From: Halichondria panicea
Taxonomy: Eukaryota > Porifera > Demospongiae > Suberitida > Halichondriidae
NCBI RefSeq assembly: GCF_963675165.1
Contig: NC_087382.1
Span: 5,814,315 to 5,878,314, forward strand
Direction: 5' to 3'
DNA length: 64,000 bases
The notes under the pieces are model-generated. The model made no database searches. It was not told the DNA's origin and worked only from the letters and a program-made list of their open reading frames with translations. Shown piece after piece: positions 3,101 to 40,320 of the stretch. The translations under genes and the position numbers were made by a program. Position 1 is the stretch's first letter, and the number at the start of each line of letters is the position of its first letter.

Positions 3101-6100
3101 CTATGTTATCTGCACTATCAGTATAAGGTCGTGTGCTTGTGTGCATCATACACTCAGTGAGAGTCTCGGGTGGTGTACTCACCTCTGGTGATACAATGTT
3201 CTCTCTGGAGGTTTGGTGGGCTGGTCTGCGATACTTCCTCGGCTGTATAGGACTAGAGGGAGTGTCCTTGGTGTCCCCTGGTGGTGTGTGTGTGTGTGTG
3301 TGTGCGTGCGTGTGTGTGTGCGTGCGTGCGTGCGTGTGTATAATGTGAGGTAACACCACTACACTACATGTACACGTATGTGGCATGGCAGTAAGGTACA
3401 TGTACATATACATTATCATTTATGTAGCGATCATACAGTAGAGGCCAATCCGTTTGCGTAGTACTCTGCGTTTATTTTGATTCTATTGCACAAAGCAAAA
3501 CAATCGGTTTGGTGCATGTGCACTAAGCTTGCAATAGTACATGTGTTGACACAACCACTAATTGGGTTCATACAGTACACAGTACAGTCAATAATGTCAC
3601 TACATGCTGTGAGTGTAAACTATGTAACCACAGCATACATTGTAGTACAGTGTAGGCAGAAACGGACCTCCGCATGATCTAATCAGCCACAATGTAGCTA
3701 TCTATACAAACAGAACAGACACTTTAATTTGGCCTCTACGTACCTGCAACATTCTTACAGTACGTGGTTCAAAGACATTGGCTTTACATTTTATTTTTAA
3801 AACCAGTAGGCTAGGCACCACCTAGGCATCTAGCACTTTTCATGTATGTGTATTATCTCTTAATATTATGTCAATCACTTTTATCGAACTCACCTCCTCC
3901 TCCAGGTGGTGGTGCTAGATTCTTGGGTCGTTCCGGTTTAGGGGGAGGGGCTCGAGCTGACGGCTCTTGGTGATCCTGTAATTAGAAGGGCAAAGTAATA
4001 AACACTTCAATATGCATGTTGCATGTACGCACGCACACACACACACACACAGCGTTATAATCAACTTAATGACAATAACAGTTCAAACTGAAGCTACATG
4101 TGCAATAGTCTGTATACTGTCAAGACTACCCTTGATACTGTAGATACATGTATCAACTAGCATTAATCAGGTCGTGTACGTGATGTACAGTGTACACACA
4201 GTGAAAGTCTGTACATTACATGTACGTAACATTTTCATCATTTTCCACTACATGTAATTAAGCTCTATTTACATGTACGTACATTTCCGTTATTTCCTCT
4301 GTGATGAGCTGCTTCACCACCCGTCCCCTGCAACTCTGTCTTCCCCCCCTCAGGGACACTCCCCCACGCACTTGTACGCAGGAAAGCCTCGTAATCACGA
4401 TTTACATGTCCAATTGAAATCCCCGATATCTCGAATGGAGCGAGTGTCTTCACCCTCTCTTCATTGCTGACCGTGGCCGAGTGAATCGTGTGTTGCTTGG
4501 GCTTGGTCAGATTAAGTGATCGCAAAAACTGAGTTTGAGCAAAATCAATGAACAAGTTACAGAATATTATTAACAAGTAACCCCGTATTGTGCTACATTA
4601 CATTATGTACATGTAATGTAAAATACAAATGCAGAGTCACTTTTCTAGCTGACACACAAAGTGTGTACAATTCTTAGAGCACCGTATTTGACTACTAGAA
4701 GGACCATTAGTTACTAGTACTCGACTAATAGAGCGATAAAAAAAATGCATGCATACATACATCCCTGGTACATGTACATGACTGTTTTAGCCTGGTGTAC
4801 TAGAAAAGAATACGCTGACATTTGATTTAGAAGTTGAACCCGAAGTACATGTACATGTACATATGACAGTAATCTCAAAGCATTTGAATGCTCAACCAAA
4901 ACAGCTAATACCCACCCACTAACCTTGAGAAAGGAAGCCCCTGATCCTAGCCTGGATCGCTGGGGCGGGGCCTCAATGATGGGTGTGTCCTCTGAGGAGG
5001 GGCCTGTAGCCTCGTCCACTGGCTGGTGGGCCGTACGCAGCTGTGAGGTAGGTGTATACATGTGAGCTAGAGGCGTCATTTGTTAGCAATTAAACCAAAC
5101 TGGTGTACACATAATAATACATGTACAGACTAACATTTAATGTAGTACGTATGCTGAATTTCAGGGCCTAATCTGTTACCAAGAGTTACAGAGGGAGAGT
5201 ATCAGATGTACATGTACATGTATGAGGAGACTTCCTGTATCTATCATGGGCTTAGAATTTGCACACTGACCAATCCAAGTGTGTGTGATGTACTCTTTTT
5301 AGCTTACATTACTCACACTTGGAATGCGTGTATAGTGTACAGTGTTTTTTCAATTTTAGAATTTATGACCCTTTTCCTAATAGCACTCCTGGTAAAGGTC
5401 GTTCATAGCTTAAAACACTATCGAGCAGTCATCTGGTAAAGGGTAGTTAAAGTAAAAGCTTCAATTCAAACACCATTATAAAACATTTTTAGGAAGAAGA
5501 ATTTAACAAGTACACCTTATATACATGTAGATCGAGGGAGAATGTGTCACATGTGTCACTGTGTGTATATATACACACACACATTGAATACTCACCTGCT
5601 CAAGTAACTCGTCTTGGTTGGAGTAGATATGGAAGATGCCCTCGGGCAGTTGGTTGATGTAGTCCTCCTCAGACGCTGGGTCATGAGGTCTGCAGAAAGT
5701 GCAGAAACACAACTGTAACAAACCTTTGCTTTAAACACAACTTGTGGGCACTCAAACTTAAAATAGAACTTGCTAAGAGATACTAAACGCATATTTTACA
5801 AGAAATTGGTCAGTCACAACTCGAACTTCAAATGTACGTACCAGTCTATAGTCCAAATTGGGTGGATTAATTGATAATCTAAGCACAATCACTCACAGCT
5901 ATACATCTATACAATTTGAAAACACGCAGCTCTTCACAGACCCCACAAATGTTTTAGACAAAACACTCCCCAGATTCTGCAAGCACATGTTGCTCATTAT
6001 CCCCCATACACTCTCCCCCATGCAATAGACAGACACCAGGCTGCATTTTCCTCTCTTCAGTTCTTTAGAGAAAATCGCCCTGGGAGCGAGGCTAAGACCC

Positions 6101-26644: not shown

Positions 26645-26789
26645 TTTATGGGAAATGTACCCAAATGCAGTGAACCATAAAAGTTCAGGTGCACCACACT
26701 CTGAAATGGAGTGGGTGTAGAATGTGCGTAATAATTGCGCATGCGCATGCGCATACAGTCAGAATCACCGCCACAATGCGGTCAGAGAT

Positions 26790-27284
26790 GTCATTTTTTC
26801 AGCCGCTCAATCTGCAGCTCTTGGACCATCCCGCGAGGCCCAAGGTTTAATCCCAGAATCCCTGTCAAGACCCGCTGACGTCTTCCTCCCAACTTGGCAA
26901 GGTGGCAGGCCCCTGCCTTGGACGTCCATGTTATTTCACCGCTCCAGCAAACCCTCATTCATGAAGCTGCCTTCTCCCCTGGACACGCCCTAGAAGTCGG
27001 AGTTAGATGCAAGCTCACCACCCATCTACAGGCCTGCCGCTCCATAGGTGTAAACTTCATTCCCATTGTGGCAGAAACACTAGGAGGTCTAGGTGAAGAA
27101 GCAATCAACATCATAGGTGCCATCGGAAATGCCATCGACCGGAGAGTAACCATGACACATTCCACATCCTCCACCAAGAAGCATCTGTTTCATCGCCTGG
27201 CCATTGCACTTTGGAGAGGAAATGCCTGCCTGTGGCTTCATCGCCAACAAACTTTACCTCCTTCAGCGGATGGTATCCGCTAAA
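26790..27284 (+). pseudogene. Retroelement C-terminal restriction-like endonuclease fragment
   Basis: Decayed coding remnant. One frame reads AALGPSREAQGLIPESLSRP and ADVFLPTWQGGRP; after a frame change near 26905 the other continues PALDVHVISPLQQTLIHEAA and then SIGVNFIPIVAETLGGLGEE to the stop at 27284. The RPAD ... LDVHV pattern fits a PD-(D/E)xK nuclease core, as at the C-terminus of some non-LTR reverse transcriptase polyproteins. No RT domain remains. Confidence 0.7.
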
Positions 27285-27381
27285 CTGTATGCCCCCCCCT
27301 CTTATCTTTTGGTCTGTTGCTTTTGTACATTTGTACTGTTTGATATTACATGAGCTGTTACCATGAAAAAAAATACAGTCA

Positions 27382-27495
27382 GGCTGAGGCCCGAGTTTTC
27401 GCTTAAAAGCGAAAACTCGGCCTGCGATCGAGGCTAGAGTACCCGCCTCTACGCAAAAAAGCGAAGACGGAGGCAGTGTACCAGGCTACCACACA
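27382..27495. repeat. Hairpin related to the AGCCTCG...CCCAGGC element ends
   Basis: CCGAGTTTTCGCTTAAAAGC and its complement form a hairpin, followed by GCGATCGAGGCTA; the motif matches the 60-bp TIR at 35701-35760. It lies about 100 bp after the endonuclease fragment at 26790-27284. Confidence 0.7.
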
Positions 27496-35083: not shown

Positions 35084-35700
35084 CTATATAATTATACTTA
35101 GTATATGACATTCAGTGTACAGCCAAATACAATTCTACCTGAATAGCATGCATGCTCTAGAAACCCTTGAGTTGTGGCTTCCGCGCAAGTTTTCTGATTT
35201 GATGGGGTTGAAACATGTGAAATTGCTCCAAGAGGCTTTCCTCAGCTCAGCTTTGTTTCTCACAACTGCAATGCCTTCCAATCCTCCTAACAACATCTTG
35301 AAATACCATCGTCCTCTAGTACCTCCGGACATTTCTGCAATGCAGGTTGTTCCTCTTGTAACAGCAGAAGTGATGAATTGCAACAAAGCCTCGGATAGAT
35401 CAAAGGTATAGAATACTACGTAGATCTACTGCATGCTTGATCCAAGGACATTGCAGCATAATTATGGGAGGAGCTCAATCATGCAGCTGTGTGCGCGCAT
35501 GCGCGCACACAGCTGCACGTATTTTGCAAGACAGAAACTCTGCATGGTTCTACAGCTACAGATATATAATAATCAAAACTAAAAAACATTTGCAATGTGA
35601 ACGTTGCTAGGATTGCCAGGAAAAGAAAAGCGCGGCGAAAAAGCGAAGAAACAAGAAATTTGGCGAGTGCATAACTCCAATCCGTTACAACGTCATTCAT

Positions 35701-37192
35701 TAGCCTCGATCCCAGGCCGAGTTTTCGCTTTTATAACGGTTAGGCGAACAACTAGGCCTAAACATGCAACTGTGGTGCAAACTTCTCTGTAGATCACGCC
35801 ATGATTTGCCACATGGGGGGCTTCCCGACTATTCGCCACAACGAAATTCGTGACATCACAGCCTCACTGCTCACAGAAGTATGCCATAATGTCGCTACAG
35901 AGCCACCCCTCCAGCCCCTCACTGGAGAGCTCTTCTCTGCCAGATCAGTAAACACAAGCAACCATGCTCGCCCCGATATTCGTGCAAGAGGCTTCTGGAA
36001 CAACCACCAAGATGCATTTTTTGATGTAAGGGTATTCTACCCTAACGCACCTAGTAACCGTTCCGGAGATGCCTACAGGAGACACGAGCAAGCAAAAAAA
36101 AGGGAATACGGACAAAGGGTCAGAGAAATCGAGCGGGGAGTCTTCACACCCTTAGTCCTCTCAACCTGGGGAGGAATGGGCAAAGAAGCAGCAACGTTCT
36201 ACAAGAGGCTCGCTGATCTATTATCCTCGAAAAGACAAAATCCGTACCCAGCAGTAATGGGATGGCTCAGATGCAGGCTATCCTTTGCATCGATCCGCTC
36301 TGCAATAATGTGCATTAGAGGAAGCCGTTCATCGCTGCACAGACCTGTCTACATGGACAATATCAACCTTGTATCTCAGGAGGGGCGAGTCCCCCCCTGA
36401 ATACATAATTCCTCTATGAACTACTTATATTCGATTTGTTTTTATTTTTGTCTGCTACATAATTACTATCACTAAACTACCTTCTTCTTTTGTACAATGT
36501 AATCTTTTCTTAGCCCCAAGAATGAGCAGGTCATACTCCAGTCCTGTGAGTATAGGACAATATTAAAAGAAACCAAAGACGGTTAAACCCTTACCTCAAA
36601 CTGTCCAGTCTCGTCCGTTAGTATAGCCAAGAGGAGCACTGTTGGGATAGCTGGATATTAGCCATTGCTCCTGTACAGAGAGTAGACATTCTAAATACGT
36701 GTATATAAATCTATACATATTAAATTTCTCGTATTAAACAGGTTATAGTGTCATTGTCGATGAGCTGATGATGGCAGCACCAAGTTCTCTGGCTCACACT
36801 CTTCACTTGATCCACCATATTAATGATGAAACTATAGTCTACCTACGGGTAGATCTTGCCAAACATGAACAAGACTTGATAGCATAGCCATAGGGCCCAC
36901 ACAAAAATATCTGACCTTAACAAGCTTGACAAAGCTTTATACCTCTTCCCTTGTTGTTCAGTCTTCAGAATAAGCTTCAGAGAAGAGAGAAGCTTCAGCT
37001 AAGAGCCATTCCCAATAATGATAAAATGGGAACTGACTTCTAGTACACGATAGTACACGAATATAAATGTCACGAAAGTGAACGAGAATATCCATTCGTC
37101 AGAATCTGACAAACGACTGAGACAACTAGTACCAGGCCTAGTTGTTCGCCTAACCGTTATAAAAGCGAAAACTCGGCCTGGGATCGAGGCTA
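35701..37192. mobile_element. TIR element B, 1.49 kb, 60-bp TIRs and 10-bp target duplication
   Basis: TIRs 35701-35760 (TAGCCTCGATCCCAGGCCGA...) and 37133-37192 match at 59 of 60 positions. Direct flanking repeat CGTCATTCAT at 35691-35700 and 37193-37202. The 9-11 bp duplication and long TIRs resemble Mutator-like elements. The interior starts with a coding fragment of a restriction-like endonuclease and contains no evident transposase. Confidence 0.88.
35765..36400 (+). pseudogene. Restriction-like endonuclease domain of a retroelement polyprotein, inside element B
   Basis: Open frame that begins directly after the left TIR, in mid-domain: CNCGANFSVDHAMIC (C-x-C-x7-H-x3-C zinc knuckle), GGFPTIRHNEIRD, then RPDIRARGFW and AFFDVRVFYPNAPSN, with a KKREYGQRVREIE helix and a stop at 36400. 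RPD plus DVRV fits the PD-(D/E)xK nuclease core; zinc knuckle followed by this core is the layout of REL endonucleases at the C-terminus of R2/NeSL-type retroelements. No reverse transcriptase lies upstream, so the frame is a captured or truncated domain. Confidence 0.72.
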
Positions 37193-38352
37193 CGTCATTC
37201 ATATGTACTGTTTCAAGAAATTTAAGCTATAATTATTATTTTTGTTTTGGTACTTTTTCTGGCCAATCCTTTCATCACATTGCAAGTAATAATTATTGTT
37301 GATGTGTACAAGCTAGGTGTTTAATTACTTAATGTTATGCAATATTTACTAGGTTCATAGTTTAATGAGTTTGTGGTAAATGTGTTGTTTTGTTCATTTG
37401 TTGTGCGCAGGGCCCCTTGCTCTGGCCCTGCCCCCTTGTTTTTGTATTTGCCATCACCCACTATCTTCCTCGGTTTGTTGTTGTATTTTGTCTAAACTCA
37501 CTAAGAATTGTTGCAAAGGGTCAAGTCAACTTGTACTCTAGGATAAGTATAGGAGCCTGTCTCCCAACAATAGCTAACTCTCAAACTAAACTAGCCTGTC
37601 TAGTTCTTAGTCTATACAAGAAAGAGCTCAACAATTATAGTGATGATTTTGCATTTTTGCAGGCTATATAGTAATGTGTTTATGATGTTGTCCCCTGACA
37701 GTGCATGCATGCTTCTTTTCTATGAAGGCCGGTGAAGGAGGCTAACATCTAAAACTACTTCTTCTACAACAATTAATGAGTACTGTTGTACTCTCAGTGT
37801 GTTCTTTTATATCAGTAGAAGGAACACAAAGAAAATGTTAGTCCATGTTATTAAATGTTATTCACTGTCCTGCAAAGGTGAATTCGCAATGACTGGTTTA
37901 CCCAACCTGTATTTGATTCTAAAATTCCTTATCAACAGTAGGCCACTCGACGGTACATGTTCATGACGTTGTAACGGATTGGAGTTATGCACTCGCCGAA
38001 TTTCTTGTTTCTTCGCTTTTTCTTTTCCTGGCAATCCTATAGCAACGTTCACATTGCAAATGTTTTTTAGTTTTGATTCCCTTTCTTTTTTATTACAGTA
38101 GTACATTAATGATAAGATTTATGTGACGTTGATAAATTTGTCATCGTCCTGTAATCTTGTTGAAGATAATACATGTATCGTTGGACAGAAATATATTTTA
38201 CTCCCCAATAATGAAAGTGAAATACCTATAAGAGGAACATCAAGAAGCAAGAGAAGTTCAAGAAGAGAAGACATGCAGGACTGGAATTATTTTATACATT
38301 TATCTATGTGATAAAAATAATGTTAATTAAGCTTATAGATTATAATATAATT

Positions 38353-38754: not shown

Positions 38755-40320
38755 ACATGTCTGTACACGGAGGTAATCAGTGGCGGATCCAGAGGGGGTT
38801 CTTTGGGTTCAATTGAACCCCCCTTTGAGAAAAAAGTGAGTGCAATGGGAGGCTCAAGCAACTATAGCTAGTTAGCAAGTTGTTCCTTTCTTACTAGCTT
38901 TCACATGCATTTCTCACTTACCTTTAATTTAGTCCTTGTTAGTCCTGCGAAGCTTTATCTGTGCAGTTTCAGTGACTATGAAGGCTAAAAACTCTCCAGC
39001 GTAGCATGCCGTGAGACTGGTTATGAAAAGTGATGACCTTTTTTTAGGAAAAAATTCGGTGTGTTAATGCTATAGCATGCAAATATATATGTACACTGTC
39101 CTTTGGAGGCAGGGCTGGAGCTGTTGGGGAGAGATGTAATGTTTGCACGTTATTGCAGATAAAAAACATAGAACTGCAAAACCCCACAAAAAAACAGTCA
39201 CCCTTGAAAATGTGTGGGAGGGTGGCTAGAGGGCAGAGAGATTGAGCTGTTAGGCAGGGCTTCATAGAGGGGGGCACTCGCTCCCCCCCTGGCAATTGCA
39301 AATTTTTGTATTGAAAATATAGGCCATAACACACAGTGTTACGGCATGAACAAACAACAATCAACCTACGCACAGAGTACGTGTGAAACTAATTTCTACT
39401 CGTGAAGAATGATGCGTGATAAAACCGTCATTTGAATCTAAATCAGTTTTACAGCTATAGTGTACAGGGGCGTTTCTAGAGATTGAAGCAGGAGGTGCTC
39501 AAGAGCACTGAAAAAATGGGGCCGCGTTACGCCCCCGCATTTATTTCGGCGCGTCTTTCCTCCTCCCCCATGCAGCCTTGCAGCAAAAAGTACAGCACAC
39601 TGCCCAAGAAACGAGCGCCTCCTATACTACAGTAGACTCCCATGCAGCTTGGCCGGAATAGCGAGGTGGCTGCAGCTCAGGAAATAGCCGCGGCTTAAAA
39701 ACTACCTTACCTCGAATCTAATGACTACTTTTGCGGTTCTTGTCTCGAGGATAATGTAGGATAATGAATCATTTTGTTCTCTATTTAAGTGTAATTCAAT
39801 TTTATTTGCTAAACCACACCCAAAACGTCATATCCGGCCGTAAACACGTATGATTTTTTTTTCGGTTAATACACCTTTATGGTGGAAGCAAGTAAATTAA
39901 TAATAAAATAATAAAATAATAAACAAAGAACAGTGTATGTAAAATAGTGTGTACATGCATGAGATGAACAGTTAGTTTGTTAGTTTTTACAAGCTGGCCT
40001 CTGCTATAACCAGGTCCATAGGTGATATCTTCATAGCGTGGCCTCTTGATGAACGAGCGCCACGTATGCATTGAATGGCAGACCTGAGCAGGCTGAAAGA
40101 GAGGGAGCATCTTAGCCAGTGCAAGGTGGTATTGTAGGGTTAGTCCCATTTATCTGCTAGGAGGGAGTCCAGTCGTTTGTAGAAGTTTGTAGCTTGGGAC
40201 AGCCAGCACTGGCCGGTAACCGGAATACGAGTGGCCGTACTTCAGGTTGAGTTTTGTGCAGTAAACATAATAATAGCTAGCATTCCGAGCCAAGCCAAAT
40301 GGCCGGTATATCGAGGTGAC
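38755..40320. other. Non-coding repeat mosaic
   Basis: No supported gene. Recognisable pieces include AGTGGCGGATCCAGAGG (a common transposon-end phrase), a segment around 39265-39300 with GGGGGGCACTCGCTCCCCCC, ACAGGGGCGTTTCTAGAG at 39465, and several CTTCAGG/GCCGGAATAGCGAG phrases near 40225 and 40330. Confidence 0.5.

Follow-up and report, generated by a model that had tools for sequence, protein, structure and literature searches.

The window analysed here, a stretch of 64,000 nucleotides of the sponge Halichondria panicea (contig NC_087382.1), contains at 35701..37192 a unit of 1,492 bp that is flanked by a perfect 10-bp target site duplication, CGTCATTCAT, on its left (35691..35700) and right (37193..37202) side, just as the initial annotation had reported. 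The unit is bounded by perfect inverted arms, a left TIR on the forward strand (35701..35759) and a right TIR on the reverse strand (37134..37192), which pair over 59 nt with 100% complementarity; the length of 60 bp given previously thus has to be corrected to 59, and the left TIR is shortened relative to the 85 bp usual in the family, the likeness of the right one to the family TIR extending to 73 nt. Between the two arms lie, both on the forward strand, a 762-bp fragment of a LINE (family 1) that comprises the 3' end of its ORF and the 3' UTR (35760..36521), and the leftover interior of a standard TIR element (36520..37133), which together with the right TIR aligns at 93–95% to four standard copies. 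Positions 60 to ~412 of the standard element (~350 bp) are gone, having been replaced by the 762 bp of LINE sequence. The LINE piece is joined on the left at ..CTAGGCCT/AAACATG with 3 nt of microhomology (CCT), extending beyond these only if a one-A difference is allowed, and on the right at ..CCAAGA/ATGAGC with 2 nt (GA). It is devoid of the LINE 5' part, of the last ~17 nt and of the poly(A), and no duplication was seen at its two joins. The TIR is predicted to fold into a hairpin with pairs up to position 61, and the left junction, at TIR position 59/60, falls beside its base.

An open frame of 212 aa (35762..36400, forward strand) starts at the TIR boundary and carries a CCHC knuckle with the spacing C-x1-C-x7-H-x3-C, as well as the restriction-like endonuclease motifs RHN, ARPD, FFDVRV and KKREY, all of them assigned by eye, in part from the layout given in PMC5678591. 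Searches of Pfam and of PDB sequences with the nuclease domain returned zero matches, and a structure model of the domain reached a mean pLDDT of 37.3, which is too poor to confirm the fold. A stop codon immediately precedes the frame and its first ATG is codon 14 (35801), within the zinc knuckle, so that the frame is a cut-off piece. The earlier description of a knuckle plus nuclease domain directly at the TIR boundary therefore stands as regards the open frame and its visible motifs, but what begins there is the truncated remainder of a longer protein. No transposase frame was found inside the element, and the nuclease piece is most likely an untranslated, or at best accidental, passenger in it.

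The origin of this passenger can be traced to LINEs elsewhere in the genome. The 212-aa frame matches the C-terminus of the 1,055-aa ORF of an intact-looking copy at locus L062 (57% over 216 columns), in which the RT domain (PF00078) occupies residues 394–587 and the nuclease domain residues 838–1053. The order RT, knuckle and nuclease in one ORF recurs in the LINE at locus L074 (892 aa, RVT_1), knuckle and nuclease being recognised by eye, and the notion that the domain normally sits at the C-terminus of non-LTR reverse transcriptases is thereby confirmed in both long LINE frames checked. At the nucleotide level, the segment 35760..36521 aligns at 95.0–98.0% to three LINE copies (L004, L005 and L006), and L002, L003 and L006 run on upstream into more LINE sequence. 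A long A tail is found in five of the six copies L002–L007, L006 ending in a short mixed tail only, and repeats resembling target duplications flank L005 and L007; the window segment has neither a complete LINE 3' end with poly(A) nor a target duplication of its own. The nuclease domain has at least 153 matches in the genome; a comparison of 150 of these with the 238 TIR-element ends of known position placed one of them, the window copy, between paired ends. Between the LINE lineages L062 and L063, dN amounts to 0.29 vs a dS of 2.9, the latter near saturation, which suggests constraint in the LINEs. In the dN/dS comparison proposed for the domain, the window frame is nearly identical to the LINE copies (dN 0.002–0.006 and dS 0.021–0.043; six comparisons, of which two cover loci already fetched once), a low divergence that recent capture would explain, that would leave use of the frame possible and that is uninformative on selection after the capture. 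A further, decayed C-terminal fragment of a family-1-type LINE (39990..40196, reverse strand), matching the ORF of L062 at 68% across 66 aa, lies in the window outside any TIR element.

The TIR family to which the unit belongs is abundant, its standard member measuring ~1.1 kb with 85-bp TIRs and mostly 9–10 bp duplications. Its 28-bp end has 695 + 714 = 1,409 matches in the genome at no more than 3 mismatches; coordinates were available for 238 of these at least 1,409 ends, and further domain-bearing copies are possible outside those 238. Among 100 ends, all exact and on contig C1, 39 convergent pairs could be formed and 22 ends stayed unpaired. The pairs span 950–1,120 bp in 28 cases and at most 130 bp in 9, and the two longer ones (1,227 and 1,733 bp) are without the nuclease domain. 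The nine short pairs on C1, merely 90–103 bp in length, are end-to-end hairpins and form a separate size class. In 15 other element pairs the target duplication was 9 bp (nine pairs), 10 bp (four), 7 bp (one) or absent (one), and the TIR was perfect over 85 bp in 10 of them. When these 15 and the pairs of unusual length are taken together, no LINE segment or nuclease domain was found inside the TIR element in any of the 22 other pairs; in L014, L023 and L070, LINE sequence is present outside the element. The copies of unusual length or structure (L064, L065, L066, L067 and L070) contain nested elements, extra segments or deletions, with breaks or nested insertions at TIR positions 60–70 in L066, L067 and L070. 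As a separate observation, L064 and L065 each contain an extra segment of ~640–680 bp at standard position ~160. Family members or related elements are also nested in, or abut, TIR positions ~57–69 of another copy in L018, L024 and L066, with 9–10 bp duplications in L018 and L066, which suggests that these positions are a hotspot for self-insertion.

Mutator-like elements are characterized by target duplications of 9–11 bp and long TIRs. Both are seen here, the duplication being 10 bp in the window unit and 9 or 10 bp in 13 of the 15 other pairs, and the TIRs 59 bp and 85 bp, respectively; on these grounds the family is classified as Mutator-like and, being without a transposase, as non-autonomous. 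Its long TIRs and 9–10 bp duplications are shared with MULEs, from which it differs in that the window element has no transposase and that none of 30 MULE-domain loci has these ends as demonstrated termini of its own. These loci were fetched from 31 matches to the MULE domain PF10551; 4 of the 30 contain a family end with up to 3 mismatches, and a transposase for these ends was not found among them. The ends in L059 (3442–3477) and L061 (3763–3798) are 36-bp palindromes of two end sequences, located inside a MULE-encoding repeat and flanked by the 9-bp direct repeat ggaagttgc. Since the palindromes come with a 9-bp repeat of their own, they are insertions, and the MULE-encoding repeats of L059 and L061 were accordingly dismissed as autonomous partners. 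Perhaps the palindromes are minimal mobile units of the family.

When the whole genome (131 Mb, 39 contigs) was searched at the DNA level, the full 1,492-bp unit was matched once among the best 40 of 779 candidates; within the same 40, seven other places match positions 60–821 or part of this stretch only, and the remaining matches cover 820–1492 or the TIRs only. The sequence at 35701..37192 is thus very probably a chimeric copy of a non-autonomous Mutator-like TIR element with a LINE fragment as passenger, that is, a genuine transposon of an ordinary nested or chimeric kind. The suggestion that a Mutator-like element captured the domain holds in outcome, but for this single copy only. A simple LINE insertion into the TIR element was rejected, the tail and the duplication being missing. 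The loss of both LINE ends, the 2–3 nt of microhomology at both joins, the singularity of the chimera and the absence of similar cases in the 22 other pairs fit a one-off template switch or an insertion followed by a deletion.

Of these two routes, template switching is the one that we favour, as the course with somewhat better than even prospects. A break or stalled fork would have arisen where the left TIR borders the interior, in the hairpin-forming stretch, and synthesis across the gap would have jumped to a LINE copy as template and then returned, the order of steps being read from one allele in a single assembly. According to the excerpted text of PMC8277862, single-copy captures by animal Pack-TIRs mostly fit gap filling with template switching, and microhomology of 1–36 bp (median 2) occurs in at least one breakpoint in 67.6% of cases. 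The anatomy of the window element is consistent with this gap-filling model, for which the 2–3 nt overlaps are weak support. If the element moved at all, it would have been through a transposase acting in trans and recognising its TIRs.

Alternatively, a 5'-truncated LINE may have entered the left TIR near the hairpin base by target-primed reverse transcription, a later deletion having removed the LINE 3' end, the poly(A) and ~350 bp of the element. This course, which we consider possible but on balance improbable, draws its credit from the left join, which adjoins the predicted hairpin base, where other rearrangements occur (elements broken or nested at TIR positions 60–70 in L066, L067 and L070), and lies within ~10 nt of where LINE tails stop in this or related TIRs (L072, L063 and L115–L124). 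Since that base is used by LINEs of another clade, insertion plus deletion may be the true route. However, it requires a second event that happens to take the LINE tail, it has left no LINE target duplication, the LINE of the window runs in the other orientation than those of L063, L072 and L092, and family-1 tails mostly lie elsewhere, a TIR end being no farther away than 120 bp for 2 of 16 tails and for none of the six copies L002–L007.

The second reading offered by the initial annotation was that nucleases of this kind move TIR elements. A domain that is functional in the TIR element, helping to mobilise the window element or its relatives, could be argued from the open frame, the recognisable motifs and the intact 59-bp TIRs, but it is very improbable, given that one copy was found, that a stop codon stands before the frame with the first ATG only in the knuckle, that the 22 other pairs are without the domain and that the 9–10 bp target duplications point to a DDE transposase. 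With 1,409 ends in the genome and the domain following an RT in L062 and L074, the proposal is not supported: as far as sampled, in 22 other pairs and two long LINE frames, the ends are without the domain and the domain follows a reverse transcriptase, the kind of observations that the initial annotation had named as speaking against it. A reading of the unit as an autonomous transposon that encodes the domain was discarded, as there is no transposase frame and the chimera is single. An assembly artefact fusing a TIR element with a LINE copy would account for the single copy but is just as improbable, in view of the perfect 10-bp duplication, the presence of both TIRs and the position of the junctions within a 7.6-Mb contig.

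The closest analogy to the chimera is offered by Pack-TIRs and Pack-MULEs, with which it has in common intact TIRs and a target duplication, a foreign interior, short microhomology, single-copy status and parental copies elsewhere (PMC8277862, as far as excerpted). A foreign segment does lie here between TIRs and target duplication, with its parent elsewhere and the left TIR reduced to 59 of 85 bp; unlike Pack-TIRs, however, which the excerpted definition in PMC8277862 restricts to captured non-TE sequence, the window element has taken up a fragment of a LINE and thus falls outside that definition. For the 100 animal reference genomes of that survey, no Pack-MULE is reported (PMC8277862). On the side of the passenger, RLE-type LINEs of the CRE, R2, R4, NeSL and HERO clades combine RT, CCHC knuckle and restriction-like endonuclease in one ORF, as does the source of the domain (PMC4640811 and PMC5678591, in part), whereas the window piece retains only the last 212 codons and the 3' UTR. 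Its knuckle, C-x1-C-x7-H-x3-C, differs slightly from the C-x2-3-C-x7-8-H-x4-C quoted for RLE LINEs in these excerpts. The intact nuclease frame flush with the TIR is probably a retrotransposon fragment and not a new transposition enzyme, and the unit illustrates that Mutator-like MITEs may take up sequence.

The second nuclease domain of the window, at 26790..27284, is held by a 5'-truncated insertion of LINE family 2 with a short A tail (26763..27373, forward strand), enclosed by the 9-bp target duplication TACAGTCAG at 26754..26762 and 27374..27382. This family has 58 matches in the genome, and L074, with its single 892-aa frame for RT, knuckle and nuclease, is ~53% identical to it. A tblastn search with three family-1 proteins gave zero matches to the domain at 26790..27284 at E 1e-3, by which a common family for the two window domains was ruled out. 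A few bases 3' of the insertion lies a hairpin remnant of the TIR-end family (27387..27436, no strand), and the fold of 27374..27440 has a z-score of -5.55. The assertion that the same domain lies here beside a hairpin of the same ends is therefore right about the hairpin but not about the domain, which comes from another LINE family, and 26763..27373 is a LINE insertion independent of the unit at 35701..37192. The association said to occur twice thus unites separate LINE families, although some substance remains in the neighbourhood itself.

For family 1, 4 of 149 domain matches have one of the 238 known ends no more than 1 kb away, a number that was reached by 4 of 500 coordinate rotations, in a test that used this incomplete list of ends and assumed lengths for some contigs and in which some matches are pieces of one copy; general clustering of family-1 domains at TIR ends was not accepted on these figures. 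The 2 of 16 family-1 tails noted above, all with an A7 run and from 20 loci, compare with 0.15 expected from the same background as used for family 2. For family 2 and its relative L092, an end was found within 120 bp in 5 of 19 tails, with 0.18 expected from a background of 15 ends in 187,686 bp, and in 3 of 17 once the window and L072, the cases that prompted the test, are left out; L073 and L087, both in this tail set, have a common flank. The density of ends is also raised farther from the family-2 tails (6 in 10,154 bp) and, with most of the 19 tails having no near end, tight targeting of TIR ends by this family was rejected. The recurring proximity of nuclease-bearing LINEs and TIR ends nonetheless has some substance, and the pattern is one of LINEs landing near or in TIRs, not of LINE nucleases moving TIRs.

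A third LINE clade, that of L074, shows this more sharply. Twelve distinct places in the genome have an A8 run with TACCAGGCC no more than 8 nt behind it, the pattern having been chosen after L063, L072 and L092, which are all among the 12. Ten of the places, L092 included, have the 12-mer GTATACCAGGCC, L063 and L072 being the two without GTATACC. This 12-mer occurs 438 times and is closely preceded by an A8 run at 10 of these sites vs 0.34 expected from the A8 density of the 64-kb window alone; a control pattern had 0 matches, but is a weak control, as its segment lies in TIR-A and not in the TIRs matched most by the test pattern. At loci L115–L124 (contigs C1, C6, C10, C12, C14 and C16), all outside the window, the poly(A) tails stop at (T/G)GTATACCAGGCC within TIRs belonging to a related MITE family that has TAGCCTCG ends. 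L074-clade LINE 3' sequence precedes the tail at all 10 GTATACCAGGCC places, aligning at 75–100%, the LINE part being just 12 nt plus tail in L116, L122 and L123. Two pairs are duplicated regions, so that the 10 places represent 8 events. Five distinct LINE 5' truncation points were mapped (reference positions 3206, 3210, 3260, 2869 and 3007), the start at 3260 comprising two events with different 5' joins, and the LINE 5' ends of L118 and L124 lie beyond the fetched pieces. Possible 5-nt target duplications are GTATA in L117 and TGTAT in L122. Independent insertions at one sequence are thus found for the L074 clade, and the varied 5' truncations at GTATACCAGGCC are evidence for site-preferring insertion into DNA-transposon ends.

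Altogether, 34 LINE 3' ends of the clade were found with one mismatch allowed; the flanks were read for seven, of which six lie at the TIR site and one, L074 itself, at GATATACGG. The tails of L074 and of the family-2 copies L076 and L090 stop at a second repeat, which starts with GATATACGG, GGTATATC or GGTATACGG. With tails both at the TIR site and at this repeat, the L074 clade seems, judging from these flanks, to prefer GTATAC-like sites in repeats, one of which would lie just inside a TIR hairpin. Target-specific insertion into repeats is a known trait of RLE LINEs, the targets named for non-LTR elements include transposons, and both non-specific and microsatellite-specific families occur in the HERO clade (PMC4640811); moreover, the R2 protein cleaves branched DNA (PMC6895275, in excerpt). 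It is conceivable, though unlikely on present grounds, that an RLE LINE clade integrates preferentially just inward of the hairpin base in the TIRs of Mutator-like MITEs (GGCCTGGTATAC, beside the tail), possibly reading hairpin or branched DNA in addition to GTATAC, and that a similar event, involving a related LINE and the sister TIR family, has left the window element as its scar.

A close parallel is known from Xenopus, where the LINE Tx1L targets the DNA transposon Tx1D, much as the third clade appears to act here; Tx1L differs from that clade in its APE-type endonuclease and in a host element that is not Mutator-like. If true, the TIR site would thus provide an RLE-type counterpart of Tx1L in Tx1D, and LINE tails at one TIR spot would add MITE TIRs to the targets of RLE-type LINEs. 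Among the papers listed in literature searches, none described the insertion of an RLE LINE into MITE TIRs in its title or at the start of its abstract; such work may still exist. The LINEs at the TIR site would also offer a natural test of whether RLE endonucleases read DNA shape besides sequence, and the apparent preference of LINEs for TIR sites is, of all these results, the lead of greatest interest, above the chimera. Finally, L074, L076, L077 and L090 represent two LINE families, and their tails are located at or close to one and the same second repeat, GGTATACGGTAGTGTGTTTGTGTGTCTGTG.
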